Part shown: positions 44,776 through 58,786 of the stretch, piece after piece
Layout of the letters: the number at the start of each line of letters is the position of its first letter
How positions within the stretch are numbered: the stretch's first letter is position 1
Source of the DNA: Thermococcus sp. SY098
Lineage (GTDB): Archaea; Methanobacteriota_B; Thermococci; Thermococcales; Thermococcaceae
Length of the DNA stretch: 64,000 nucleotides
Direction: 5' to 3'
NCBI RefSeq assembly: GCF_035621495.1
Contig: NZ_CP141821.1
Coordinates: 772,760-836,759, forward strand
The notes under the pieces: model-generated
What the model was told of the DNA's origin: nothing
Database searches by the model: none
What the model saw: only the letters and a program-made list of their open reading frames with translations
Made by a program: the position numbers and the translations under genes

Positions 44776-45522
44776 ATGGATATAGATGGTATTAGAGCTG
44801 AAATTAGGGAGAAAATCTGGAGACTGCTGGAGGAAACTGGAGAAGCAATGCCACCAAAACCAATTCGAGGGAGGATACCCAACTTTAGAGGTGCCGAAAT
44901 TGCTGCAAAAAAGTTATCTTCACTTGAGGAGTGGAAAAAAGCTGAGGTCGTTAAGATAAATCCTGACAGTCCACAGAGACCAGTAAGGGTGCAAGCACTG
45001 AAGGAGGGAAAACTGCTCATCATGCCAACTCCAAGGATAAAGAGAGGGTTCCTCCTTATAAATCCAAGTTTAATTCCTAAGAGTTACTACTCTTTTGCTT
45101 CCACAATTAGAGGCGCTTTTAAATTTGGAAAACTGCTACCCACTCTAAGGGACATTGAAAAAGAAATTCCAAAAATTGATCTTGTGGTTGAAGGCAGCGT
45201 TGCCGTTGATAGAAACTGCAACAGGCTGGGAAAGGGAGAGGGGTATGGGGACATAGAGTGGGGGATTCTTTCTCTACTGGGCAAAGTGGATAAGAACACC
45301 CCAATTGCAACAACGGTGTCTGAGATCCAGATAGTGAAGAATATTCCAAAGAAGCCCCATGATCTTCCACTTAACATAATTGTGACTCCAAAGAGAGTTA
45401 TAAGATGTAACCGATGCGATAAGCCATTTGGAATAATTCCGGAAAGTTTGAAAAAAGAGAAAATCAATGAGATACCTCTGCTTGATGAACTGATAAGACT
45501 CGGCTACTTCAAAGTAAGATGA
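44776..45522 (+). CDS. 5-formyltetrahydrofolate cyclo-ligase family protein (archaeal type)
   Basis: 248 residues. The N-terminal IREKIWRLLEETGEAMPP, then RIPNFRGAEIAAKKL, LLIMPTPRIKRGFLLINPS, and the GKGEGYGDIEWGILSLLG loop match the MTHFS (COG0212-like) family. A zinc-like CNRCDKPFG segment near the C-terminus is extra. Archaeal members may act in modified folate or thiamine-type metabolism rather than true MTHFS. ATG at 44776 has GGTGAT 5 bases upstream; any longer frame runs through the tRNA genes. Confidence 0.82.
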   Translation: MDIDGIRAEIREKIWRLLEETGEAMPPKPIRGRIPNFRGAEIAAKKLSSLEEWKKAEVVKINPDSPQRPVRVQALKEGKLLIMPTPRIKRGFLLINPSLIPKSYYSFASTIRGAFKFGKLLPTLRDIEKEIPKIDLVVEGSVAVDRNCNRLGKGEGYGDIEWGILSLLGKVDKNTPIATTVSEIQIVKNIPKKPHDLPLNIIVTPKRVIRCNRCDKPFGIIPESLKKEKINEIPLLDELIRLGYFKVR

Positions 45523-45537
45523 AGTTTACATCGGATC

Positions 45538-46869
45538 TCACCAGCCCTGCACTATTTTCAAAACTTTGTCATCAACTTTCCCGTTTTCAACGTCTTCAAT
45601 TGCTTGTTCCAGTTTATCCAAGCCCTCATCCAGAAGCTCCTTCTCTATCGTCAAAGGTGGCTGGATTCTGAGGACATTCCCATGGAGAAAAGCCAATATT
45701 AGACCAAGCTCATAAGCTCTCCAAACCACTTTCTTAGCCTCATCGAAAGCCCTTTCCTTTGTTTCTCTGTTTTTCACTAAATCTATACCAATCATCAGAC
45801 CTTTTCCCCTGACATCACCAATAAGTTCATGCTCTTTCTGCATTTTTTTGAGTCTTCTCATGGTGTACTCTCCAAGCTCTTCAGCTCTTTTGAGCAAATT
45901 CTTTTCTTCAATTTCTTCAATAACTGCTAAAGCTGCTCTGCTTGTTACTGGGTTCCCACTGAGTGTAAACGTATGCCCCAAAGCCGGTAAAGACTCCATG
46001 ATCTCTTCTCGTCCAATGATAGCGCTTATTGGCAATCCTCCACCCAAAGGTTTTGCAATAGTTATTATGTCTGGTGTAACTCCAAAGTGCTCAATTGCAA
46101 ACCATTTTCCTGTCCTTCCTAACCCGCTTTGAACTTCGTCAACAACTAAGAGAATTCCGTATTCGTCAAGAATTTTCTTCAGCTTTCTAAAATAGTCATC
46201 AGGCGGGACTATCATCCCAGCATCTCCCTGGATAGGCTCAGCAAACAAAGCAGCGACCCCTTCTGCATACACTTCACGTTCAAATTTATATTCAAGGTAG
46301 GATATGCACTCAAAGTGACATCTTTTTCTCTCCTGTCCGAAGGGACATCTGTAACAGTCAGGAAATGGGATGTAGTGGATATCACTTAGCTCACCAACCA
46401 GTGCCCTAATTTCAAAATCAAGCCCAGTTATGCTCATAGCACCATACGTTGCCCCGTAATAGCTTCCTAAATATCCCAGGAGTGTCCTCCTCCCTGTGTA
46501 TGCTCTTGCAAACTTTATTGCACCATCATTTGCATCACTGCCACTCAATCCCAAGACGACTTTAGCACTTTTTATTGGTGAGATCTCAACAAGTTTCTCC
46601 GCCAACAAAAGGGGTTCTACAGGAAAACCATAGATGAATGTGAAGTGAACCAATTTGTCCGTCTGCTCTTTTATAGCTTTTACAACCCGATTGTTGTTAT
46701 GCCCGACGTTTTGGACGGCAGCATCAGAGAGAAAGTCTATGTATTCTCTTCCTTCAATGTCCCAAACTTTGGCGTTTTCCGCTTTAACACCAACAATGGG
46801 GGCATAGGTAACACGGGCTGCTTTTGGAAACACTTTTAAATATCGAAAGATAATCTCGTCTCTTTTCAT
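45538..46869 (-). CDS. Class III PLP-dependent aminotransferase (possibly amino acid racemase)
   Basis: 443 residues. Fold type I class III features: [47 protein letters not shown], the Asp in [16 protein letters not shown], and the PLP lysine in [15 protein letters not shown]. Related Thermococcales enzymes include ornithine aminotransferase and Leu/Met or Ala/Ser racemases, so the substrate is open. Two Cys pairs in a loop ([19 protein letters not shown]) could bind metal. ATG at 46869 is preferred; the upstream 24 residues of the longer frame have no family match. Confidence 0.86.
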
Positions 46870-46937
46870 AATTATCGCCACAGCATAAGTAAGATTAACA
46901 TCTAAATAGGATTTTTGGCTATGGGTTTGAACAAATG

Positions 46938-47264
46938 TCAAACTTTTAAATTCATACGAACGTCTTCATCCAGCAGGAGAAAAAGAGCCAATGCCGACAG
47001 TATGGCAAGTGTAAAGGAAGATAGTGTAAGTCCCATTATGCCCCACAACAGACCAAACAGAAAATCCAAAAGAGCCACATAAGTGGCGGTTGTTATTGCG
47101 ATATCTCTTCCAAGAAAAATTCCAAAGCTAATCAGGAGATGAATTGAACCAATACCCCAAAATCCCAGAAACATGAGCTTGTCACCAATGCTTAGCAAGC
47201 CCAACCCATAGAAGTATATGCTCATTAAAAGAAAGAAAAGAATTAAGATGGGCTTTGGTTTCAT
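46938..47264 (-). CDS. Small multi-pass membrane protein, unknown function
   Basis: 108 residues with about four membrane helices and a short charged C-terminus ([13 protein letters not shown]). It overlaps the stop of the upstream MFS gene in an ATGA arrangement (start 47264, stop 47261), so it is co-translated with that transporter and may be an accessory subunit. No family recognised. Confidence 0.75.
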
Positions 47265-48454
47265 TCTCCGAACTCCTCCACGGGCATCTTCATTCTTGAA
47301 ACCGCAATCAATGTTAGTATACCCACCAGGGGCATGAATGCCAGTTCACCAAATGCCAATCCAACGCTATGCCTTGCCAGTAGATCCGTAATTGAAGGTG
47401 CTACTATGTTTGCCGTGTTTGAAATAAGCCCCAATGCGAATGAAGCCCTTGGATAAACACTCTTTGGATATGTTGCCGGTGCTGATGTCCAGAATGCTGG
47501 ACCCGTTCCTTGAATTGTTCCAACAAGCCAGACTGCCGCTAAAGCAATAGTATAGTTTCCGCTGAGCATTGCTTTGGCGTAGACAATCAGTCCCACAAAA
47601 GATAACATATATGATATTACCATAACCTGGACAATGGCCCTAAATAGACCTCTTGAGGTTGGATTCTTCCTTGAAAGCAGATATCCTATGTATCCAAATA
47701 CAATTGACCAAATCGCTTTTGAAATATTGAGGTTCGTGCTGAGTGTTGCTACATGAGCCTTTGTCCAGCCCATGTCATAGGCGATTGATGCCGAGAAGCC
47801 AACAATCGTGAAGATTACCCACAAAGCCGGGAAGAACGTGAATCCCAAAACCCAGGTAAACTTGAGTTTCCAGACGTTTATCTTTGCTTCTCCCCTTTCA
47901 TGGATTATTTCAAAGTCCTCTGTAAAGAGCCACCATATCAGTAGAACTGCGTACATTATGAGGACTGTAACTAAAAAGCCACCCTTCCATCCAAATGCAT
48001 GGATTAAATATTTAGCACTCATTGAGCCAAAAACACCGCCCCAGAAGATTCCAGAGAGGATTATACCCTTTGCAAATGGTCTTTCAGCAACAAAGTACCT
48101 TGCTATCTGAGTGCTGAAGAGTGGAACGAGAGTAACCACGAAACCTTGGATGAATCTTAAGAAAACTACAACATACCAGTTTGGAGCGTAAGGAATGAGC
48201 AGTTGCGGAACTGCAGCCCAGCTTAGGGCTATTGCAACGCTCCTCTTAAAGCTCCCTTCATAAATTCTTGTGTGCCCCAAAAGAAATGCGACAAAAAGAC
48301 CAAAAACATAGGCTATGTGTTGCAGATCAAAGGCATCGCTGCTGATTCCAAAATGGGCAATCACATCTGGCTTAGCGACGCTCATCATGGTGAGCGTTCC
48401 AAATCCAGCGGTCATGACAATTGTATTCAGGATTACAGACCTCCAGCGATTCAT
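47261..48454 (-). CDS. MFS transporter
   Basis: 397 residues, twelve membrane segments. The loop LGHTRIYEGSFKRSVAIALS stands at the usual loop 2-3 place. The middle loop EDFEIIHERGEAKINVWKLK separates the halves, and FWTSAPATYPKSVYPRASF is a conserved late segment. The architecture fits nitrate/oxalate-like or phthalate-type carriers. A small membrane protein is translationally coupled downstream. Substrate unknown. Confidence 0.82.
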   Translation of the reverse strand: MNRWRSVILNTIVMTAGFGTLTMMSVAKPDVIAHFGISSDAFDLQHIAYVFGLFVAFLLGHTRIYEGSFKRSVAIALSWAAVPQLLIPYAPNWYVVVFLRFIQGFVVTLVPLFSTQIARYFVAERPFAKGIILSGIFWGGVFGSMSAKYLIHAFGWKGGFLVTVLIMYAVLLIWWLFTEDFEIIHERGEAKINVWKLKFTWVLGFTFFPALWVIFTIVGFSASIAYDMGWTKAHVATLSTNLNISKAIWSIVFGYIGYLLSRKNPTSRGLFRAIVQVMVISYMLSFVGLIVYAKAMLSGNYTIALAAVWLVGTIQGTGPAFWTSAPATYPKSVYPRASFALGLISNTANIVAPSITDLLARHSVGLAFGELAFMPLVGILTLIAVSRMKMPVEEFGE

Positions 48455-48466
48455 TTTCTCACCCCA

Positions 48467-48730
48467 CTAAATTTTTCCAAAGAACATCAGCAAGCCAAAT
48501 ATAATAAACAGCACTCCTGCTCCTTTGTGGATCATCTCCACGGGTAGAGCTTCTCCAATTTTTTCACCAACAAAAGCACCTATCAAATTCACCAGAGCGA
48601 GTCCCAAAATAGCGCCGGTAAAAGCTTTGGCCCATCCATATTTTGATGCAAATGCGATTGTAGCCAACTGTGTTTTATCACCAAGCTCGGCAAGGAATAT
48701 TGCAACAAAGACATAGAGCACTTCTTTCAT
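48467..48730 (-). CDS. GDT1/TMEM165-family (UPF0016) half-size transporter
   Basis: 87 residues with three membrane helices. It has the UPF0016 signature ELGDKTQLATIAFASKYG in the first helix. Full-length GDT1 proteins have two such units, so this one probably works as a dimer and moves Mn2+ or Ca2+ ions. ATG at 48730 has GGAGG upstream. It follows 13 bases after the start codon of the MFS gene on the same strand. Confidence 0.88.
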   Translation of the reverse strand: MKEVLYVFVAIFLAELGDKTQLATIAFASKYGWAKAFTGAILGLALVNLIGAFVGEKIGEALPVEMIHKGAGVLFIIFGLLMFFGKI

Positions 48731-48770
48731 TTGACCTCCTCCCAAAGATGTGAAAAAGGGAAATGAAACT

Positions 48771-49946
48771 TCAAAGCTCTTCCAAAGCTTTCTTCATCCT
48801 TTTCATAGCTTCAATGAGCTTTTCTTTCTTTGTTGCATAGCTTATCCGTACGTATCCTTCTCCATTCTTTCCAAACGCCGTTCCCGGGATTACAACTACC
48901 TTAGCTTTCTCCAAAAGCCATTCACTGAACTCCTCACTTGTCATTCCAGTTTCTTTTATGTTGGCAAAGATGTAAAATGCACCTTTAGGTTCGAATGCAG
49001 AAATATAGGGCATCTCTTTAATTGCATCGAGAACTATCTTTCTTCTCTCAGCATATTCTCGTCTCATCTTCTCAACAGCTTCCCAGCTCTTTGGACTCCT
49101 TAGAGCTTCAATTCCTGCAACCTGAACAAAGGATGAAACGTTTCCGATAACATATGCATGGAGCTTTATCATGTCCTTAATAATGTCCTTTGGTGCGATT
49201 GCAAAGCCCAAACGCCAGCCGGTCATTGCAAATGTTTTGGAGAAGCTATTTGCCAAAATCGTATTGTCCGGGGCATATTTAAGCATTGGGTAGTGCTTTG
49301 CACCCTCATAAAGAAAGTGCTCATAAGGTTCATCGCTGAGGATGTAGAGATTATAGTCTTCAGCAATATCCGCAATAGCTTTTGCGGTTTTTTCATCTAT
49401 TGTAGCACCAGTTGGATTGTTGGGATAGTTAATCACGATCATCCTTGTCCTCTTTGTTATGAGCTCCAAAAGCTCGTCTGGATCAGGCTGAAAACCATTT
49501 TCCTCTCTTAATGGAAGCCTTACTATTCCCGCCTCGGCAAGCTTAGCATCTTCAGCGTAACAGACAAACGCAGGATCTGGGATTATGACCTCATCGCCTC
49601 TTTCAAGAAGCGTCTCAAATGCCAGATAAGTTGCTTCATAAGCACCAGCAGTTACTATAATGTTGTCAGTTGGAACACCTAAGTTGTATCTTTCTTTGTA
49701 ATATTCACTTATGGCTTGTCTAAGCTCTGGGATTCCAGCGTTTGGAGTGTAATGAGTCCATCCTTCATCTAATGCCCTCTTTGCGGCTTCCTTAATATTA
49801 TCTGGTGTGTCAAAGTCAGGTTCTCCAATTCCAAGAGAAATTACATTTTCTATTTTTCTTGCTTTTTCAAAAAGCTCTCTGATCTTTGAGCGTTGAATTA
49901 AGTTGACACGCTCCGCTATAAAATATCTGTGTCTCTTATAACGCAT
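48771..49946 (-). CDS. Aspartate/aromatic aminotransferase (class I PLP enzyme)
   Basis: 391 residues. Class I motifs: SLGIGEPDFDTPDNIKEAAK, HYTPNAGIPELRQAISEYY, IVINYPNNPTGAT, the PLP Asp/Tyr in ILSDEPYEHFLYEG, PLP lysine in ANSFSKTFAMTGWRLGFA, and the carboxylate Arg in GYVRISYATKK. It transfers amino groups between amino and keto acids. ATG at 49946 has GGGGGG upstream. It is one of several aminotransferases near here (others at 45538 and 62447). Confidence 0.92.
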   Translation of the reverse strand: MRYKRHRYFIAERVNLIQRSKIRELFEKARKIENVISLGIGEPDFDTPDNIKEAAKRALDEGWTHYTPNAGIPELRQAISEYYKERYNLGVPTDNIIVTAGAYEATYLAFETLLERGDEVIIPDPAFVCYAEDAKLAEAGIVRLPLREENGFQPDPDELLELITKRTRMIVINYPNNPTGATIDEKTAKAIADIAEDYNLYILSDEPYEHFLYEGAKHYPMLKYAPDNTILANSFSKTFAMTGWRLGFAIAPKDIIKDMIKLHAYVIGNVSSFVQVAGIEALRSPKSWEAVEKMRREYAERRKIVLDAIKEMPYISAFEPKGAFYIFANIKETGMTSEEFSEWLLEKAKVVVIPGTAFGKNGEGYVRISYATKKEKLIEAMKRMKKALEEL

Positions 49947-50080
49947 AATCATCCCCCCGTGGCATTTAGAGGGTGAATTAATATTCTTATAAACTTATCG
50001 AGAAGGATTTTCTGCTTTTTGATATATTAGTGAAACAAAATTCAATAAAATACAGACATTATGGCAAATTTTCAGAAAAG

Positions 50081-50503
50081 TCAAAGAGCCTCAACTATGG
50101 CTGCCTGTTCAAAAAGCCTCTTCACCTTTTCCACGTCACAGTCAACAAAGTGAATCTCCTTTAGTGAGTTCTTTTTAAGAAAGTCTTCAAGGGTCTTCCG
50201 GGCATTTTGACCAAAAGCCACAATGAAGTTTTCACCCTCTTTGGCTCCAACTTTTTTTATTGCTTCTCCAATTTGCAGAGTCCCTGCAAGCCTGAGAAGA
50301 ATTTCCCCCTTCACTGTTTTTGCTTTATTTGTTCCCCGCTCAAATGACTTTAACGCCAAGATAGTAGCGAACACGAGTTGTTCCCAGCATTCAACATTTG
50401 CTATTTGCATATTATCACCAAGCTCTTCAAAGATCCACGAAACATCTCCGAGCACAATTTTACTAATTGCGATTTCATGCTTGCCCAATTTTACTACCTT
50501 CAA
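50081..50503 (-). CDS. cgi121: KEOPS complex subunit Cgi121
   Basis: About 140 residues. The conserved core is NVECWEQLVFATILALKSFE, then KTVKGEILLRLAGTLQIGEA and IKKVGAKEG, which is the Cgi121 signature. As part of KEOPS it helps bind tRNA for t6A synthesis. TTG at 50503 is chosen because GGAGGTG lies 5 bases upstream; the ATG at 50572 would add 23 poorly conserved residues. It is a single gene here, away from other KEOPS genes. Confidence 0.85.
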   Translation of the reverse strand: MKVVKLGKHEIAISKIVLGDVSWIFEELGDNMQIANVECWEQLVFATILALKSFERGTNKAKTVKGEILLRLAGTLQIGEAIKKVGAKEGENFIVAFGQNARKTLEDFLKKNSLKEIHFVDCDVEKVKRLFEQAAIVEAL

Positions 50504-50717
50504 CCTTACACCTCCAGTTTCAATATAAATGCAAGATATTAAACTCTTTCCCTCGCACTCAATAATATCCAATGATAAAAAATCCTCAATTATTCTGCCA
50601 GTTTTTTAAAATTTTTTGAAATTTATATTATTATAATATTAAGACCAAAGCAAAAAATATTTAACTACTTAAAGCAAATGAAAAAATTAGCAGCTTCATG
50701 TACTTGGAGGTTCAGCG

Positions 50718-50909
50718 ATGACAAAGATGAAAATAATTAGCGTGCAGATACCGCAAGGTCTTCTGAATGCTATTGATACCCTCGTAAAGAGGGGGGTTTA
50801 TCCCAATAGAAGTGAGGTTATAAGAGAAGCTATCAGGGAGCTGATAAAGAAAGAGCTCTACAAACTTGAGACAGAAGAAAGAACAACTCCTGAGTACATA
50901 CTCGAATAA
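50718..50909 (+). CDS. Ribbon-helix-helix regulator (CdrS-like), first gene of the ftsZ unit
   Basis: 63 residues. The RHH pattern is KIISVQIPQGLLNAIDTLVK, then GVYPNRSEVIREAIRELIKK and ELYKLE. Strand residues and the NRSE turn are typical of CopG-type DNA-binding proteins. Its place directly before ftsZ matches the CdrS regulator gene known to be linked to ftsZ in haloarchaea. GGAGGT lies 6 bases before the ATG, with a TATA-like AATATTTAA at about 50657-50664. It probably controls its own operon. Confidence 0.85.
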   Translation: MTKMKIISVQIPQGLLNAIDTLVKRGVYPNRSEVIREAIRELIKKELYKLETEERTTPEYILE

Positions 50910-50956
50910 GGGTTTGTGATCAATTAGTTAACAATTAAGCCCGGGGGTTAAAGGCA

Positions 50957-52189
50957 ATGGTGTGGAAACTCTTGGAACAGGCGGGTATTAACTTGGACTT
51001 TGATGAAAACACAAAAGAAAAATTTGGGGAATATGAGGAAAACTTAGAGGGTCTGATTAAGATTGCAATCATTGGAGTTGGAGGTTCTGGGAACAATACC
51101 ATAACACGACTCTATGAGCTTGGTGTCCAAGGTGCAGAATTAATTGCGATGAATACCGATGCCCAACACTTGGCGAGAACTAAAGCTCATAAAAAAATCC
51201 TTCTCGGGAAGAACATAACTCACGGCAAGGGTTCTGGTGGAGATCCAAGAATAGGATACTTAGCAGCTGAAGCAAGTGCCCAAGAAATTGCCGAGGTAGT
51301 TAGGGATGTTGATTTGGTCTTCATAACAGCTGGAATGGGTAATGGTACTGGAACTGGAGCCGCACCAGTTGTTGCAAGGATAATCAAAGAGGTAGCAAGA
51401 AACAATGGACGATATCAAGAACCGCTTGTTGTGAGTGTTGTAACATTTCCATTCTCAACTGAAGGAACAAGAAGAATAGAGAAGGCAAAAGCAGGTATAC
51501 AAGCTTTGCTCCAGTATTCGGATACTGTGGTAATAATTGAAAATGATAAGCTTTTGGAACTCGTTCCAAATCTGCCACTCTCGGCTGCATTTAGATTTGC
51601 GGATGAGATTATAGCGAGAATGGTCAAGGGCATAACGGAAACAATAAAGCTCCCTTCTATAGTCAATATAGATTTTGCTGACGTCTACAGCGTCATGAAG
51701 AATGGTGGCGCTGCTTTGATAGGTATAGGCGAGAGCGACTCAAAGAACAGGGCTGTTGATGCTGTAGTTAACGCTCTTAACAACAAAATGCTTGAAGTTG
51801 AGTTCGGAAGCGGCGAAGCGGCATTAATTCACTTTACGGTTGGCCCAGATGTAAAGCTTGGTGAAGTCCATGAGGCAATGAAGATAGTTTATGAGAAGTT
51901 AGGTACGAAGTCAGAGATAAAATGGGGTGCAATGATTGATGAAGACTTGGGCAAAACCGTTAGGGCAATGGTTATAATGACCGGAGTCAACTCCCCTCAC
52001 ATTTTAAGCGGTGAAGTTAACGCGCTTCAAGACAGCAACAGAATTCTTATGCCCACAGATACCCTAAGGATGATCACGAAGGATACCAAGCTTGAAAGGA
52101 TCTTCGAGAGGACGATGAAAAGTGAAAAATCTAAACCACCCGTAAATGAAGATGTAGAAAGGATCTTTAGAGATATTTACCAGTTTTGA
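50957..52189 (+). CDS. ftsZ: Cell division protein FtsZ
   Basis: 410 residues. The tubulin/FtsZ GTPase motifs are present: [17 protein letters not shown], then [16 protein letters not shown] (G-box signature), [15 protein letters not shown], and the T7 loop [15 protein letters not shown] that completes the active site of the neighbour. It polymerises into the division ring. A 35-residue N-terminal extension precedes the core. It is probably transcribed with the RHH gene upstream, 47 bases away, and the ParA gene downstream. Confidence 0.96.
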
Positions 52190-52231
52190 TGTTTCTTCCT
52201 CTTTCTCTCTATTAGATTACAAGGTGATAGC

Positions 52232-53008
52232 ATGGCAAAAGTCATTAGTATAGCCAATCAAAAAGGTGGAGTCGGAAAAACAACAATAACAATGAATCTT
52301 GGCTTTGCTCTCGCGAATATGGGCAGAAAGGTTCTCTTAGTCGATATAGACCCACAATTTAACTTGACTTTTGGATTAATAGGGATGGAGGTTCTTAACT
52401 ATGAGGACAACAACGTTGGGACATTAATGACAAGGGAAAGCAGAGTTGAGGATTCCATAGTTGAAATCAGAGAAAATCTGCATTTGATACCCTCTCACCT
52501 GAATCTCTCTGCCAAAGAGATTGAGATAATTAATGCATACAATCGTGAAAGGCGCTTAGAAAAAGCCTTGAAATCAGTCCTCCCAGAGTACGATTATGTT
52601 TTAATTGACAACCCACCAAGTATGGGGATATTCCTTGTAAACTCACTCACAACTTCAGATTATGTTTTGATTCCCCTTGAGCTTAGCTATTTTGGAGTTA
52701 TCGGGATGCAGCTTATGTTCAACCTTATGAAAATGATTAAAGAGGAGACCAACGAGAACCTTACACTTCTTGGATTGATTCCCAATAAATTCACAAGACA
52801 GACAAAAGTCCCAGCTACACGGCTGAAAGAGTTAAAAGAGACGTATCCAAATGCTCCATTGCTGACAACCATACCTAAGTCAGTTGCTCTTGAAAAAGCT
52901 CAATCTCAAGGGGTCAGCATATTTGAATTCGAGGGTGATGGGAGAGCAGCGAAAGCGTTTTTAAAGCTTGCAAAAGAGGTGATTGCTCTTGTCGAAGGAG
53001 AAAGGTAA
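52232..53008 (+). CDS. ParA/MinD-family ATPase
   Basis: 258 residues. The deviant Walker A is NQKGGVGKTTITMNLGFALA, Walker A' is VLLVDIDPQFNLTFGL, Walker B is YVLIDNPPS. The C-terminal ERLEKALKSVLPEYD and DYVLIPLELSYFGVIG segments match Soj-type ParA. It partitions DNA or positions the division machinery. AGGTGATAGC precedes the ATG. An RHH-type partner gene overlaps its 3' end. Confidence 0.93.
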   Translation: MAKVISIANQKGGVGKTTITMNLGFALANMGRKVLLVDIDPQFNLTFGLIGMEVLNYEDNNVGTLMTRESRVEDSIVEIRENLHLIPSHLNLSAKEIEIINAYNRERRLEKALKSVLPEYDYVLIDNPPSMGIFLVNSLTTSDYVLIPLELSYFGVIGMQLMFNLMKMIKEETNENLTLLGLIPNKFTRQTKVPATRLKELKETYPNAPLLTTIPKSVALEKAQSQGVSIFEFEGDGRAAKAFLKLAKEVIALVEGER

Positions 53009-53327
53009 AATTCCACAGCTATTTTCTGGCTCAATTGACGAGCTCACAAGACCTAAGACAAAGAAAGCTGATAAAAGAAGAGAGGAGCTTAAGAAAATCA
53101 AGAAGCAGAAAACATTATACATCAGCCAAGACACAAATTTAAAATTAATTGAGCTTTACGCTGAAGAAAGCAGAAGACAGAGCAATATTGTGGAAGATGC
53201 TGTAAATCTGTACTACTATCTCAAAAAGGCGATGGGCGAAAAGAACTTTGATGAGCTAATGAGCGCTGTGCTTAGAGAGGATCCAGAGTTTTTAAGAAGC
53301 TATCTGGAGAAAGCCAAGCTCATTTAA
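52989..53327 (+). CDS. ParA-linked RHH-like DNA-binding protein
   Basis: About 112 residues. A basic linker (KTKKADKRREELKKIKKQK) precedes a ribbon-helix-helix-like segment TLYISQDTNLKLIELYAEES and SNIVEDAVNLYYYLKKA. The C-terminal part is helical. The position after ParA suits a ParB/CopG-type centromere-binding partner. The start is TTG at 52989 with AGAGGTGA 6 bases upstream, overlapping the ParA stop by 20 bases. Confidence 0.72.
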   Translation: MSKEKGKIPQLFSGSIDELTRPKTKKADKRREELKKIKKQKTLYISQDTNLKLIELYAEESRRQSNIVEDAVNLYYYLKKAMGEKNFDELMSAVLREDPEFLRSYLEKAKLI

Positions 53328-53364
53328 TCACCACTAACCCAGCAGCTCAAATCAGGAGATAAAA

Positions 53365-53817
53365 TCACTCACAGAATATTTCCACTATCCTCTTTATTAT
53401 TCTGCTTGTTTTTGCGACGTCACTTTTGTAGAGATAGGGAATTCTTATAACCTCCGCATTTATGCCGTGCTGCCTCAGTTGTCTTTTAAGCTCTTCACAT
53501 TTAAAATCCTGATCAGGCCCCAAAGCTACAACGTCCGGGTTTATCTTCTTCACGAGCTCAAAACTTATCCCATCAGGCTCCCCAATGTAAACCTCATCCA
53601 CCATCTTTAAGGCTTTCAAAACTTCAGCCCTTTCGTGCATCGAGTTTATTGGAGGTCTTCCTTTCCTCTTAACGACAGTTTCATCATGTGCCACTATCAC
53701 AATGAGTTCATCTCCAAGCTGCTTTGCTTGACTCAAAAAATGGATATGCCCAACATGAAGAATATCAAAAACTCCCCCGACGAGGACTCTTATCTTCTTT
53801 TCTCTCTCCGTACTCAT
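53365..53817 (-). CDS. ribL: Archaeal FAD synthase RibL-type cytidylyl/adenylyltransferase
   Basis: 150 residues. The HIGH-like motif [21 protein letters not shown], the [18 protein letters not shown] segment, and [18 protein letters not shown] match RibL, which adenylates FMN with ATP. The C-terminal [13 protein letters not shown] fits the ISSTxI motif. ATG overlaps the stop of the PUA gene by an ATGA. It belongs to the operon with pyrF and DUF4443 genes. Confidence 0.85.
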
Positions 53818-54332
53818 GGTCTCACCGTCAGCTCCCAGATTTTGTCCTTTGCGTGGTGGATTACCTTTACGGCTTTTCCCCTGTTTTTTTCTTTCATCTC
53901 TCTGCCGCTCATCAACGCAATTCCAATGGCAAGGGGTCTCCCATAATTTTCTTCAACAACAAATACAAAATCGCCTTCTTCTATCTCTTCATCGACATCA
54001 ACTATTCCGGGAGCCATTACATCGGCACCTTTTAGGATGAACGGGACAGCACCTTCATCAACAACAACTCTTCGCTTCCATTTCCTCAAGTCTTCCTCAT
54101 TGGACAGCTCATATAGGGCAATTACAAGCGGAAATACCAAGTTCTGACGTTTTATAAACATTGGCTTCCCATTTACAAAAAGTATTTGGGTGGTTTTATC
54201 AAATTCTGCAATTTGAACATCATCTTTTTTATTTATCAGCTTCTTAGCAACTTCCTCCCCAAAAATTGAACTCATCTCCCGTATTATCTCTTTAATTTCC
54301 TTCTTGCTTAAAGGATGCTTAATCTTCAGCAT
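53814..54332 (-). CDS. PUA-domain RNA-binding protein
   Basis: 172 residues. The N-terminal DUF1947-like region ([39 protein letters not shown]) is followed by the PUA domain ([40 protein letters not shown]). The order is that of archaeal proteins related to Nip7 and MCT-1. It may act in ribosome biogenesis or translation initiation. It overlaps pyrF by 14 bases and RibL by 4. Confidence 0.88.
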
Positions 54333-54948
54333 TCAGCTCACCCCAAAGGCTTTTAACAGCTTCTCTCGGATTATCAGCATTATAAATTGCTCTCCCAACA
54401 ATTATGTAGTCAGCACCAGCTTTTAAAGCTTCTTTAGCTTTCCCACCCTGAGCACCTATTCCCGGAGTGAAGATTTTTATATCCCCATCAAGCTTTTCTC
54501 TGATGTATCTTATTCTTTCAGGCTTCGTCCCGGGAGCTATAACTCCAAAAGGCCTAAGCTCATTTGCCATTTCTATAAGTCTGTCAGTAATCGGCTGCAT
54601 GAATTCCTCAGCTCCAGGATGGCTCATCTCCACAACGATAATCGTATTGCCCTCCTCCATAACCGCCCTGACACTGTCCCTTCCAACAAAGCCATGAACA
54701 ATTATATAATCTGCTCCATTATCAAAAACTTTCTTTGCAATGAGTTTGTTTGTATTTGGAATATCAGCAACTTTTAAGTCAGCTATAACCGGTAAGCCCG
54801 TTTTCTCTTTTAGCTCCCCGATTATTCCAACCCCGCTTCCAAGAATGAGAGGCCAGTTGATCTTTATCGCCCAAAGGTAGTCCTTAGTTTCCTCTGCTAT
54901 TTTCAATGCCCTCTTTCTCTCATAAACGTCCAATGCCAAGATAATCAT
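54319..54948 (-). CDS. pyrF: Orotidine 5'-phosphate decarboxylase
   Basis: 209 residues. The OMPDC signatures are LALDVYERKRALKIAEE, PVIADLKVADIPNTNKLIAK with the Asp-Lys-x-x-Asp-like catalytic array, and IFTPGIGAQGGKAKEALKAG, ADYIIVGRAIYNADNP. It makes UMP. It overlaps the start of the PUA gene and the end of DUF4443, so the set is one operon. GAGGTGGG precedes the ATG. Confidence 0.95.
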   Translation of the reverse strand: MIILALDVYERKRALKIAEETKDYLWAIKINWPLILGSGVGIIGELKEKTGLPVIADLKVADIPNTNKLIAKKVFDNGADYIIVHGFVGRDSVRAVMEEGNTIIVVEMSHPGAEEFMQPITDRLIEMANELRPFGVIAPGTKPERIRYIREKLDGDIKIFTPGIGAQGGKAKEALKAGADYIIVGRAIYNADNPREAVKSLWGELNAED

Positions 54949-55544
54949 TTGCCCACCTCAAGGATTTCCCTGGGGAGTTCATTCTTTTTAAGTGTTAATG
55001 CAACATGAATTGCGCTTTTAATTGCATCTGCTCTATTTTCAGCCCATGTAACAACGATCAGATCCCCCTCTTTTGGACTAAGTTTTTTTAAGTCTTCAGC
55101 AAGCTTGGGGAGAGTTTCCTTTAATGGCCTTTCATCTTCGGGGAATACAATTTCACCCGCTTTGTAAACCAAAATCATAGCACCTTTGGCAAAATAGCGA
55201 ATAGCTTCGTCTCTGAGTTCTATGCTTTTAAATTGGGGTGGGTTCTTAACAAGGACAGCATAAGTGGGCATGTTTTCAACTTTTTCAACTTCAGCCGGCT
55301 CAGAGAACAAAGTTAGTATTTGGGACAGAACATTAAGACCTTTTTCATTCAAATAATGCCCTTTTTGTTTTGACTCAATTAATTCAAGCTTTGCAAGCTT
55401 CTTCAAAAGAGTTCTAACGCTTCCTTCACCGAGATCAAGACCCTCAGAAATCTGTTTTCTTCCCCTCGGAGTCTTTAATAGAAAAAGTGTTGCAACTGCA
55501 TCTTCAAGGGTAAACTCAGGATAAGCTCCTCTTTTCCAGCTCAT
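54945..55544 (-). CDS. DUF4443-type winged-helix regulator
   Basis: 199 residues. A winged helix (FTLEDAVATLFLLKTPRGRK, QISEGLDLGEGSVRTLLKKLAKLELIE) is followed by a C-terminal sensor domain (YAVLVKNPPQFKSIELRDEA, GDLIVVTWAENRADAIKSAI). This is the DUF4443 layout. It leads the pyrF operon and so may respond to pyrimidines, but no ligand is known. ATG at 55544 has GAGGTGAGG upstream; the 55601 start is not supported. Confidence 0.8.
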   Translation of the reverse strand: MSWKRGAYPEFTLEDAVATLFLLKTPRGRKQISEGLDLGEGSVRTLLKKLAKLELIESKQKGHYLNEKGLNVLSQILTLFSEPAEVEKVENMPTYAVLVKNPPQFKSIELRDEAIRYFAKGAMILVYKAGEIVFPEDERPLKETLPKLAEDLKKLSPKEGDLIVVTWAENRADAIKSAIHVALTLKKNELPREILEVGK

Positions 55545-55657
55545 TTCCTCACCTCTCAGAATTGTCTCGCTCAGCTGATAAATAAATGTTTTTATCACCA
55601 AACATGCTTGATAGTAGTACTACCTGAGAACAAAGTTAAAATAAAAGACAAAATGCC

Positions 55658-57346
55658 TTAGAATATTAACGGTGCTCTGTATTCACCCCAAACTTCTCTT
55701 AAAACATCAGTGACTTCTCCGAGTGTCGCCAAGTGTCTGTGTGCTTCAATTATATATGGCATTAGGTTAACATCCTCCTTCTCTGCAGCATTCCTCAGCT
55801 TATCCAAAGCCTCCTCTACCTTCTTGTTGTCCCTCTCACTCCTCAGCTTCTTCAAACGCTCAATCTGCTTGTCCCTAATACTTGGATCAACCTTGAGAAT
55901 CTCAACCTCAATTGGCTCATCCACAACAAACTTGTTGACACCAACGATAATCCTCTTGCCCTCCTCGACTTCTTTCTGATACTTGTAAGCAGAATCTGCA
56001 ATCTCTTTCTGGATATAGCCGCGCTCAATAGCCCTCATCATTCCACCCATGCGCTCAATCTTCTCAATGTACTTCATAGCTTCCTCCTCGATATGATCGG
56101 TAAGCCACTCAATGTAATACGCTCCACCCAACGGATCAATCGTGTCAACAACACCGCTTTCATAAGCAATAATCTGCTGCGTTCTTAATGCAATCCTAAC
56201 GCTCTTTTCCGTTGGAAGAGATAGTGCTTCATCATAACTGTTCGTATGCAAGCTTTGGGTTCCACCCAACACAGCGGCTAAAGCCTGAATCGTGACCCTA
56301 ATGATGTTGTTCTCCGGCTGCTGAGCTGTGAGAGTTGAACCAGCAGTTTGCGTGTGGAATCTAAGGAGCATTGACTTTGGATTCTTTGCGCCGAATTTCT
56401 CCTTCATTATCTTAGCCCACAACCTTCTCGCTGCCCTGAATTTAGCAATCTCCTCAAGGAAGTTGTTGTGAGCATTGAAGAAGAAGCTCAATCTTGGGGC
56501 AAACTTATCAACGTCCATTCCCCTCTCAATAACAGCCTTTACATATTCGATACCATCTGCCAATGTGAAGGCAACCTCTTGGACTGCATTTGCACCAGCT
56601 TCTCTGATGTGATACCCACTAATGCTGATTGGATTCCACTTTGGAACATTCTCAGCACAGTACATGATAATATCCGTAGTTAAGCGCATTGAGGGCTGTG
56701 GTGGGAAGATGTAAGTCCCCCTCGCAATGTACTCCTTGAGAATATCATTCTGCACAGTTCCCCTTAAAACGTGCTGCGGAACGCCCTGCTTTTCAGCAAC
56801 GAGGATGTACATTGCCAAAAGGTTTGCTGCAGTTGAGTTTATTGTCATTGAAGTTGAAACCTTATCAAGAGGGATTCCATCAAAGAGAATCTCCATATCC
56901 CAGAGGGAGTCAATAGCAACTCCAACCTTACCAACCTCACCCTCAGCCATTGGATGGTCGCTGTCATAGCCGAGCTGAGTTGGCAAGTCAAAGGCTACAC
57001 TCAAACCTGTTTGCCCTTGTTCCAAGAGGTACTTGTAACGTTTGTTTGACTCCTCAGCGGTGGCATAGCCGGCATATTGTCTCATCGTCCAGAATCTTCC
57101 CCTATACATTGTCGCATAAACGCCACGAGTGAAGGGGTACTGTCCCGGAAAGCCCAGCTTCTCCATGTAGTCCCAATTTTCTCCAAGATCAGCTGGGGTG
57201 TAGACTCTTTTAATTTCAAAGCCATCATCAGTCATAAACTTCTCTTTTCTCTCTGGTCTTTTTGCAATAAGTGGCTTAACCACATTTTCTTCCCACTCTT
57301 GTTCAGCTTTTCTAATCTCTTCAAGCTTTTTTCTATCAAAGGTCAT
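55658..57346 (-). CDS. Methylmalonyl-CoA mutase, large subunit catalytic part
   Basis: 562 residues. The TIM-barrel catalytic domain is complete: [91 protein letters not shown] and [18 protein letters not shown]. The cobalamin-binding domain is not fused, so a separate small subunit gene is needed. It rearranges methylmalonyl-CoA and succinyl-CoA. ATG at 57346 is chosen. The B12 subunit gene is not in this window. It is divergent from the MBL gene. Confidence 0.95.
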
Positions 57347-57473
57347 CGGGATCACCAGATGAGCTTTTAGCTCTCAACATATAAAAACCTTTTACATAAC
57401 TAAAGGTTGAACTTGATATTGGATATTTTATCCATGTGCAGAAAAACTTAACTTAATGCAAGTGAATCTCATT

Positions 57474-58346
57474 ATGATGATAATTTACGGAATAGGTCTT
57501 GACAGCTCAGCAAAGATTACTTTTCAAAGTCACGCTCACAGTGATCATTTTGTTAGTGGAAATACTATATTCTCCACGAAAGCTACCAAATTTCTAAGCC
57601 ATCTAAAGAAAAGTGGACTTTATAAAGTTGTAAAGTTTGGAAAAACGTTTTACTTAGGTGACTACAAAGCCAAGCTTTATCCCGCTGGTCACATCTTAGG
57701 CTCCGCTCAAATTTATATTGAATTCGATGAGTTTTCTCTGCTTTATACTGGAGACGTCAAGTGGTTTAAGCTGAGAACTGCTGAAAAGAGCAAGTTTAGA
57801 AAGGCCGATGTTCTAATAATCGAAGCAACTTTCGGTGTTCCTATGTATAACTTTCCTTCACCAAAAGAAGCAGAAAAAAAGCTTATTGCTTTTGTTGAGA
57901 GTGCTCTTGACAAGCGAAAAACACCCACCCTTTATGCAAACCAGATAGGCAAAGCCCAAGAGCTTTTGAAGATTCTTGAGGTTCACGGCTATACCGTGAA
58001 AGCCTCAAGGAGCATAATTAAAGTCGCAAAGATTTATGAAAAATTTGGAATTAAATTTCAAAATATAGATAGGGACGGAGAAGTGCTCTTGAGAGGCTTC
58101 ACACGCCCCAAGCCCGATGATTCAGCTTCCTCCTATGAGCTTCATGTTTCTGGATTTGGCAATTTAAAGCTCAGCAACCATGCTGATTTTTGGGAACTTA
58201 TCAAAATTATAGAGAAAGTCAGGCCAGAAAAGATCTACACTGTTTATGGATATGCGGAAAATTTTGCAAAAATTTTAAGAGGTTTGGGGTATGATGCGAC
58301 TGCCATAGACAAAGATTGTTGTTTATCATGTTACAAAAATATTTAA
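57474..58346 (+). CDS. MBL-fold protein, RNase-like/exonuclease family (COG1236-like)
   Basis: 290 residues. The MBL motif is TFQSHAHSDHFVSGN, with LYPAGHILGSAQIYIE, LYTGDVKWFKL and LSNHADFWELI supplying further ligands. This is the beta-CASP-linked subgroup (mRNA 3'-end processing-like or DNA ligase-associated exonuclease). The beta-CASP insert is short. Likely a nuclease. ATG at 57474 is chosen; 57456 lacks a ribosome binding site. Confidence 0.82.
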   Translation: MMIIYGIGLDSSAKITFQSHAHSDHFVSGNTIFSTKATKFLSHLKKSGLYKVVKFGKTFYLGDYKAKLYPAGHILGSAQIYIEFDEFSLLYTGDVKWFKLRTAEKSKFRKADVLIIEATFGVPMYNFPSPKEAEKKLIAFVESALDKRKTPTLYANQIGKAQELLKILEVHGYTVKASRSIIKVAKIYEKFGIKFQNIDRDGEVLLRGFTRPKPDDSASSYELHVSGFGNLKLSNHADFWELIKIIEKVRPEKIYTVYGYAENFAKILRGLGYDATAIDKDCCLSCYKNI

Positions 58347-58369
58347 GGGCTAATGTGTAAACCTCTATC

Positions 58370-58786
58370 ATGAAATATAGCAAATATAAACGGTACAATC
58401 CTCGCAAGCACATCTTCCTGAACTACCTCCTCCTTACGCACAAAAAGAGGATTATTCGGAAGAAAGAGCTTGTTTACGATATGAAGATACAAAAGCTTCA
58501 GGACATAATAGATGCTTTAAGTGGATGGGTGGAAGCTGCAGAGATTGAAAGAAATTTAAAACATGCTTTTCTGCATGATCTGGAGATGTTCAGGAAGTTT
58601 CTACTAACTTTCCTCACTCGATCTACACTAAACAGCATTAATTACTATACCCTGAAGGCGTGGGAAAGCAGAATTGATACACTTGCAAATGAAATTTCCA
58701 GACGAAAAAATCCATTTTTTAAGCTCCTATATTCAAGATTTAAGCTTTCTTTGGATGAATTCTACAGAGAGCTGGGCATTAGATGA
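58370..58786 (+). CDS. Basic helical protein upstream of KaiC operon, unknown function
   Basis: 138 residues, strongly basic at the N-terminus (KYSKYKRYNPRKH, THKKRIIRKKELVY) and helical after that (LQDIIDALSGWVEAAEIERN, HDLEMFRKFLLTFLTRSTLN). No motif is recognised. The high lysine/arginine content suggests nucleic acid or phospholipid contact. It is 46 bases before the KaiC gene on the same strand and may belong to its operon. There is no good ribosome binding site, so its mRNA may be leaderless. Confidence 0.6.
   Translation: MKYSKYKRYNPRKHIFLNYLLLTHKKRIIRKKELVYDMKIQKLQDIIDALSGWVEAAEIERNLKHAFLHDLEMFRKFLLTFLTRSTLNSINYYTLKAWESRIDTLANEISRRKNPFFKLLYSRFKLSLDEFYRELGIR

Follow-up and report, generated by a model that had tools for sequence, protein, structure and literature searches.

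A conserved cdrS–ftsZ2–segAB gene order in Thermococcaceae and a candidate division–segregation operon

In most Thermococcaceae genomes, the genes for a CdrS-like ribbon-helix-helix (RHH) regulator and the FtsZ paralogue FtsZ2 are followed, in the same direction, by a ParA/Soj-type ATPase gene and an overlapping gene for a small partner, and the four together, cdrS-ftsZ2-segA-segB, are with moderate probability a division–segregation operon with graded expression. The window, i.e., the whole stretch of DNA analysed, is 64,000 nucleotides long and covers positions 772,760–836,759 of the single contig of 2,033,621 bases that makes up the genome of Thermococcus sp. SY098. In the open reading frame (ORF) listing of the window, the CdrS-like RHH protein, FtsZ, the ParA/Soj-type ATPase, and the partner of 112 amino acids (aa) follow each other on the plus strand, and the co-directional four-ORF block claimed in the initial annotation holds in coordinates, order, and strand. 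The features are listed below.

50615–50649, no strand assigned: A/T-rich imperfect inverted repeat I2, 17-nt arms, 76% complementary, upstream of the cdrS promoter
50654–50673, plus strand: near-invariant promoter core (BRE/TATA region), AAAATATTTAACTACTTAAA, from the 76-locus comparison; exact site found in this genome
50718–50909, plus strand: CdrS-like RHH regulator, 63 aa, with GGAGG at 50706–50710 (ORF and profile matches)
50957–52189, plus strand: FtsZ, CdrS-linked paralogue (called FtsZ2), 410 aa (ORF, profile matches, and neighbours)
52190–52231, plus strand: ftsZ2–segA gap with a 19-nt pyrimidine run at 52192–52210 and GGTG at 52223–52226 (sequence and 74-locus comparison)
52232–53008, plus strand: SegA-like ParA/Soj-type ATPase, 258 aa (ORF, profile, and PDB matches)
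52989–53327, plus strand: SegB-like partner, 112 aa, TTG start, 20-nt overlap with segA (ORF and conserved alignment)

The product of the first gene (50718–50909) matched the Pfam model RHH_1 (E 1.9e-8, 34.4 bits, cut-off 20.5), and its top NCBIfam match was CdrS (NF058555, TransRegCdrSHalo; E 4.8e-11). Since the NF058555 score of 42.5 bits stays below the equivalog cut-off of 100, the protein is referred to as CdrS-like. Its gene lies directly upstream of an ftsZ in the window and in the compared loci. The second product (50957–52189) is an FtsZ, with a TIGR00065 score of 367.5 bits above the equivalog cut-off of 295.2, and a profile search of the SY098 genome gave three tubulin-superfamily matches. 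The cdrS–ftsZ2 pair was present in 16 of the 21 outgroup genomes of the phylum; in these 16, the CdrS-linked copy is 50–54% identical, the other full-length FtsZ copies listed being 41–50% identical and two contig-end fragments 50 and 53%. The regulator had been described as haloarchaeal in type: a CdrS-like gene does lie beside its FtsZ, but the pair is no haloarchaeal speciality, being reported as archaea-wide (PMC7439475) and found in those 16 outgroups. In haloarchaea, cdrS and ftsZ2 are reported to be co-expressed and to act in division control, and there as in other archaea a small RHH gene immediately precedes an FtsZ paralogue and points the same way (PMC7439475, PMC8406309). The window differs in carrying two further co-directional genes after ftsZ2 and in the distance between cdrS and ftsZ2, 47 nt as compared with 3 nt reported for H. 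volcanii (PMC8406309).

A total of 94 Thermococcaceae genomes were searched (thresholds: cdrS, E <= 1e-8; partner, E <= 1e-3; ParA relative, E <= 1e-30), and cdrS was found in 91, the partner in 84, and a ParA relative in 91. The cdrS and partner genes were located on one strand within 4 kb in 74 genomes, and ftsZ2 and parA lay between them in all 74 (73 fetched loci and the window); the conservation of the proposed block, 74 of 94 genomes, is far beyond chance. These genomes span five genera (g1, g2, g3, g4, and g6), with gaps of 18–82 nt between cdrS and ftsZ2 and 22–87 nt between ftsZ2 and segA. The remaining 20 genomes include five in which the genes are split between contigs (G036, G047, G053, G057, and G064, the last with cdrS and the first half of parA on one contig), G089 with neither cdrS nor the partner in an assembly 75% complete, G035 with cdrS and no partner, and 13 genomes of genus g5, among which cdrS was detected in 11 and the partner was near it in none of the 11. 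Outside g5, the order holds in every genome with cdrS and segB on one contig. Judged by this gene content, segAB is an add-on module and not an obligatory part of the cdrS–ftsZ2 block, since the pair is absent beside ftsZ2 in G035 and g5.

The overlap of the last two genes at 52989 was also upheld. It amounts to 20 nt in the window, and in 72 of 74 loci the partner starts with a TTG within eight codons before a conserved IPKL-type motif and overlaps parA by 11–20 nt; the two deviating loci have an ATG 12 nt past parA (L067) or no start codon within eight codons (L038). TTG 52989 is thus well supported as the partner start in the window. Conservation of a rare start codon within parA across so many loci agrees with translational coupling of parA and the partner, which is predicted on this ground.

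The promoter region of cdrS was compared over 76 loci, 72 with the pair and four without it. The sequence TATTTAAC was found 56–63 nt before the cdrS ATG in all 76 loci and AAARTATTTAACTA in 74, and the mean pairwise identity of the promoter 20-mer was 0.94 as compared with 0.44–0.65 for neighbouring 20-mers. In each of 10 genomes searched, the closest match to the 20-mer precedes cdrS, in G093 tied with one other site at two mismatches. By allowing up to three mismatches, 44 sites were obtained in the 10 genomes (reversed control, 16), of which 10 are those before cdrS; the other 34 carry two or three mismatches, and a CdrS regulon is not claimed despite the excess over the control. An identical 20-mer, three mismatches from the core, was observed 5–6 kb from cdrS in G024 (C1:2064822–2064841, minus strand) and G035 (C1:379882–379901, plus strand), where a second gene is possibly under control similar to that of cdrS. 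The region of repeat I2, upstream of the promoter, is moderately conserved over the 76 aligned loci; the repeat may be a regulator site or part of the promoter of the divergent Cgi121 gene. Scans not made for archaea gave near-chance numbers of sigma-70 promoters (10 as against 6.7 in shuffled sequences) and terminators (one as against 2.2), and no RNA family reached the gathering threshold in positions 45000–58500 of the window or in four loci.

The gap between ftsZ2 and parA is biased towards pyrimidines. With its last 14 nt set aside, pyrimidines make up 78% of it and G 4% (74 loci), as compared with 47% pyrimidine in the cdrS–ftsZ2 gap (59 loci), and pyrimidine runs of at least 10 nt occur in 29 of 74 gaps as against 10% in shuffled sequences. 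The longest T runs are 3–6 nt and therefore not classical long T tracts; GGTG is present in all 74 gaps. The gap is a candidate for a leaky terminator combined with a ribosome-binding site, and Methanococcus maripaludis is reported to terminate transcription inside operons (PMC10450193). A BRE/TATA-like string was found in 15 of the 74 gaps, all in g3 or g4, and was absent from the other 59 including the window. By these strings, segAB may have its own promoter in the gap.

In g4, the cdrS leader is complementary to the cdrS–ftsZ2 gap over up to 13 nt, with a mean of 7.9 as against 5.5 after shuffling and at least 9 nt in 43% as against 0.9%. The 13-nt complementarity was observed in L037, L057, L059, and L080 as inverted copies of a motif around TTTCAGCGGCTT, which was not seen in the window. 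Own pairs lie barely above pairs formed across loci (7.5), so that no covariation is apparent; the motif copies are candidates for paired regulator sites or for RNA pairing.

The place behind ftsZ2 also carries a record of gain and loss. In the window the partner is followed by a convergent cytidylyltransferase-like (ribL-like) gene. The same ribL-like gene directly follows ftsZ2 in three g5 loci (L098, L100, and L102; of 13 genomes), in G035 (L099), and, with no pair, in four of four genomes of the sister family f2, at a ribL-like identity of 34–38%. G035 is a small Thermococcus-type genome (contig of 1,522,818 bases) in which the stop codons of ftsZ2 and the ribL-like gene adjoin; a search of it at E <= 1e-30 gave no ParA relative. 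In a tree of 35 selected FtsZ2 rows (31 of the family and four of the outgroup), in which several branches are long, those to the outgroup included, and some forks are open, g5 nests within the family and G035 within g4; three changes of the label "with the pair" are required. We read these as a single gain followed by two losses: the pair probably entered the junction of ftsZ2 and the ribL-like gene once and disappeared from it twice, as far as the tree and gene neighbours tell. The partner was detected in none of the 21 outgroup genomes, and ParA matches in nine of them never shared a contig with an ftsZ match, the assemblies being fragmented.

Related pairs occur apart from ftsZ2. In five of 13 g5 genomes a diverged pair is located elsewhere (ParA 55–57%, partner 34–37% identical), and in each of the five the two genes overlap by 11 nt. 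The M. jannaschii plasmid pDSM2661_1 (L186) carries a pair that resembles that of the window in identity (ParA 49%; partner 30%, E 1e-7) and in gene overlap, also 11 nt, and differs in being plasmid-borne and in having no ftsZ among the six annotated neighbours shown; a T. nautili plasmid (L185) carries a lone partner relative (39%). The plasmid pair together with the lone gene suggests that a SegAB-like cassette is able to move between plasmids and chromosomes.

Genus g5 has, in addition, a pair of another kind. A second ParA (39–42%) was found in 12 of 13 g5 genomes, and its overlapping partner of about 100 aa in all 13 (in G086 as an 18-residue fragment) and in none of the 81 others; the loci are L101, L134–L146, and L182, for instance L134:1498–2552 on the minus strand. 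The N-terminus of this second partner reads ALGRGLEALIS, with variants, which we take to resemble the ParA-contacting motif of bacterial ParB. In distribution the second pair is complementary to the ftsZ2-linked pair, but this complementarity is restricted to one clade and therefore represents one event. In six further loci (L201, L222, L234, L236, L241, and L264), titled Thermoplasmata, Thermoplasmatales, uncultured archaeon, and Micrarchaeota MAG, the end of a ParA gene is overlapped by the next gene, whose product of 90–92 aa has an N-terminal GL(D/E)xL(I/L)S; such proteins may represent a more widespread kind of archaeal ParA partner.

The initial annotation had proposed that the whole set may be one operon, and the comparison sustains this in part: the conserved order and the near-invariant promoter before cdrS agree with it, and the BRE/TATA-like strings in 15 of 74 gaps do not. 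An unlikely alternative, if the most serious of those considered, is that segAB is a passenger module that entered a harmless tail-to-tail slot behind ftsZ2, is expressed from its own promoter independently of division, and owes its position to inheritance only. Such an origin would agree with the convergent junction, the strings in the gap, the similar pairs that five g5 genomes and a plasmid carry apart from ftsZ2, and the two clean losses, by which the pair is separable, but it is opposed by the co-direction, the gap of at most 87 nt, the 59 gaps free of a BRE/TATA-like string, and an order that 74 genomes from five genera share. The division–segregation operon is supported because order and strand are kept in 74 of 94 genomes with short gaps and segA and segB overlap in 72 of 74, and because the promoter is near-invariant and the gap string is absent in 59 of 74. 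Together with the history proposed for it, it is further supported by the f2 junction without the pair, the overlapping pairs of five g5 genomes and the M. jannaschii plasmid, and the FtsZ2 tree, as well as by the published haloarchaeal work on cdrS and ftsZ2 (PMC7439475, PMC8406309) and on segB and segAB deletions in S. acidocaldarius (PMC12284271).

The ATPase (52232–53008) matched the Pfam family AAA_31 with an E-value of 3.7e-56 (190 bits) and carries a P-loop of the ParA type, KGGVGKTT. Its closest solved relatives in the PDB are annotated as ParA or Soj segregation proteins, and the best 80 ParA relatives listed in a scan of 84,980 species are mostly bacterial. Chain 7dut (220 aa, titled Soj), which we take to be SegA of S. 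solfataricus, is absent among its 14 PDB matches at E <= 1e-15; with the plasmid ParA relative as query, 7dut was matched at E 1.7e-14 and the best Soj at 4.8e-37. By these matches, the SegA-like ATPase is closer to bacterial Soj than to Sulfolobus SegA. The Pfam MipZ model was matched at 46.5 bits (cut-off 20.7) and was rejected as the best family against the 190 bits of AAA_31. It is improbable that the ParA-type protein acts on FtsZ2 in the manner of bacterial MipZ or PomZ, with the partner as DNA anchor, for ring placement and not for segregation: the adjacency to ftsZ2 in 74 genomes and a MipZ score above the cut-off would suit such a spatial regulator, but MipZ is far from the best family, the closest proteins of solved structure are Soj segregation proteins, g5 and the plasmid have related pairs with no ftsZ beside them, and G035 and g5 divide without a linked pair.

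The partner was described in the initial annotation as a second RHH-type protein, and this assignment found no significant match. No Pfam model was matched by the frame from 52983 or 52989 to 53327 even at E 10, ParB hence included. PDB profile searches gave non-significant matches only, among unrelated proteins, including 2kel (E 0.34), which we take to be an RHH protein, and the omega repressor 1irq (E 0.65), and a profile comparison with CdrS was no better than five column-shuffled controls. A structure model made from three input sequences was poor (mean pLDDT 62.9, one long helix). No PDB chain named SegB was obtained in searches up to E 10, and among 66 pattern-matching viral stretches none was confirmed as a relative. 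A match in G084 (E 5.5e-4) was rejected as a partner gene, because it sits in a frame of 259 aa. That the partner is mainly an operon repressor or a general DNA-packing protein, with the ATPase merely modulating its DNA binding and with no dedicated segregation role, is the least probable of the explanations and hardly credible: the protein is basic and small with weak repressor-type matches (phrog_876, E 0.02; 1irq) and T. kodakarensis is polyploid (PMC5120986), so that active segregation may be dispensable in Thermococcus, but these matches are not significant and are equalled by unrelated ones, and a partition pair is favoured by the parallel to SegAB and by the way the partner gene overlaps that of a ParA-type ATPase.

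In Sulfolobales and some Euryarchaeota, the SegAB cassette likewise consists of a ParA-type ATPase gene and, after it and overlapping it, a gene for about 110 aa (PMC12284271, PMC5120986); the pair differs from that cassette in its place behind cdrS–ftsZ2. To Sulfolobus the link of the ATPase is weak, and that of the partner to SegB was undetected by sequence. From the arrangement and the relation to the M. jannaschii plasmid pair, membership in SegAB is probable. The published Sulfolobus SegB motif, which may not be that of the partner, was not enriched in the window (four as against 6.7 expected). With bacterial ParA/Soj of ParABS and with MipZ the ATPase shares the superfamily, but the partner lacks a ParB match, and the pair lies beside ftsZ and far from cdc6 (about 0.35–0.8 Mb in the six linked genomes among eight compared, contigs taken as circular), unlike parAB of many bacteria, which lies near the origin. 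One of the genomes, G079, is presumably T. sibiricus, and if so, the published Thermococcus segAB would be an exception with the pair away from ftsZ2. In T. sibiricus a search for SegB sites is reported to have given few, none near its segAB, and according to the same paper no further gene regularly accompanies segAB (PMC12284271). Deletion of segB or segAB in S. acidocaldarius is reported there to raise the number of anucleate cells.

No report of ftsZ2 next to segAB in Thermococcales was found in a literature search that covered text, mainly of freely accessible papers; the order could be listed in supplements such as the FlaGs source data (PMC12284271) or Table S1 (PMC7439475). In that search, segAB and FtsZ2 came together in one paper, whose passages covered here name FtsZ2 only within a cited title, and "Thermococc" is absent from the main text of the CdrS papers (PMC7439475, PMC8406309). 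The CdrS–FtsZ2 linkage and SegAB have each been published; within the literature searched, what appears to be unreported is that the two are combined in a conserved order, with the gain and the losses proposed for it.

For the division–segregation operon the following course is proposed. A message for CdrS and FtsZ2, made together as in haloarchaea, would start from the single conserved promoter, and part of the transcripts would read through the pyrimidine-rich, probably leaky terminator into segA–segB, giving lower and coupled amounts of ATPase and partner. As in the model for SegAB of Sulfolobales, the partner would label sites on the chromosome, and ATP-driven cycles of the ATPase would move or compact the DNA. 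Shared transcription under CdrS control would keep the segregation capacity in step with the division capacity. We infer that the genes are co-transcribed with partial termination, that the partner binds DNA, that CdrS controls the promoter, and that the pair acts in segregation; gene order would lead to a shared transcript and this in turn to functional coupling. Counting against the operon reading, G035 and g5 live without an ftsZ2-linked segAB, the partner has no sequence tie to Sulfolobus SegB or to RHH proteins and the ATPase is nearer to Soj, the Sulfolobus SegB motif is not enriched, and the pair is distant from cdc6.

It is also conceivable, if rather doubtful, that the segregation genes, besides sharing a transcript with cdrS and ftsZ2, exert feedback on division, with either the partner or CdrS binding the promoter and the ATPase on segregating DNA timing or placing the FtsZ2 ring, and that in g5 the different ParA pair with the ParB-like motif took over. 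If true, such feedback would be an archaeal counterpart of the bacterial segregation–division checkpoints that arose when a partition cassette was captured.

Genome G024, which we take to be T. kodakarensis, carries the ftsZ2-linked pair. In a 2016 review, most SegAB carriers then known are described as monoploid or diploid, and T. kodakarensis as having 7–19 chromosome copies (PMC5120986). The location of a division-ring gene and its regulator before a likely segregation pair in most Thermococcaceae offers a handle on how chromosome separation may be tied to division. The conserved block allows this to be tested in a genus amenable to genetics (T. kodakarensis), and the natural losses provide strains for comparison.
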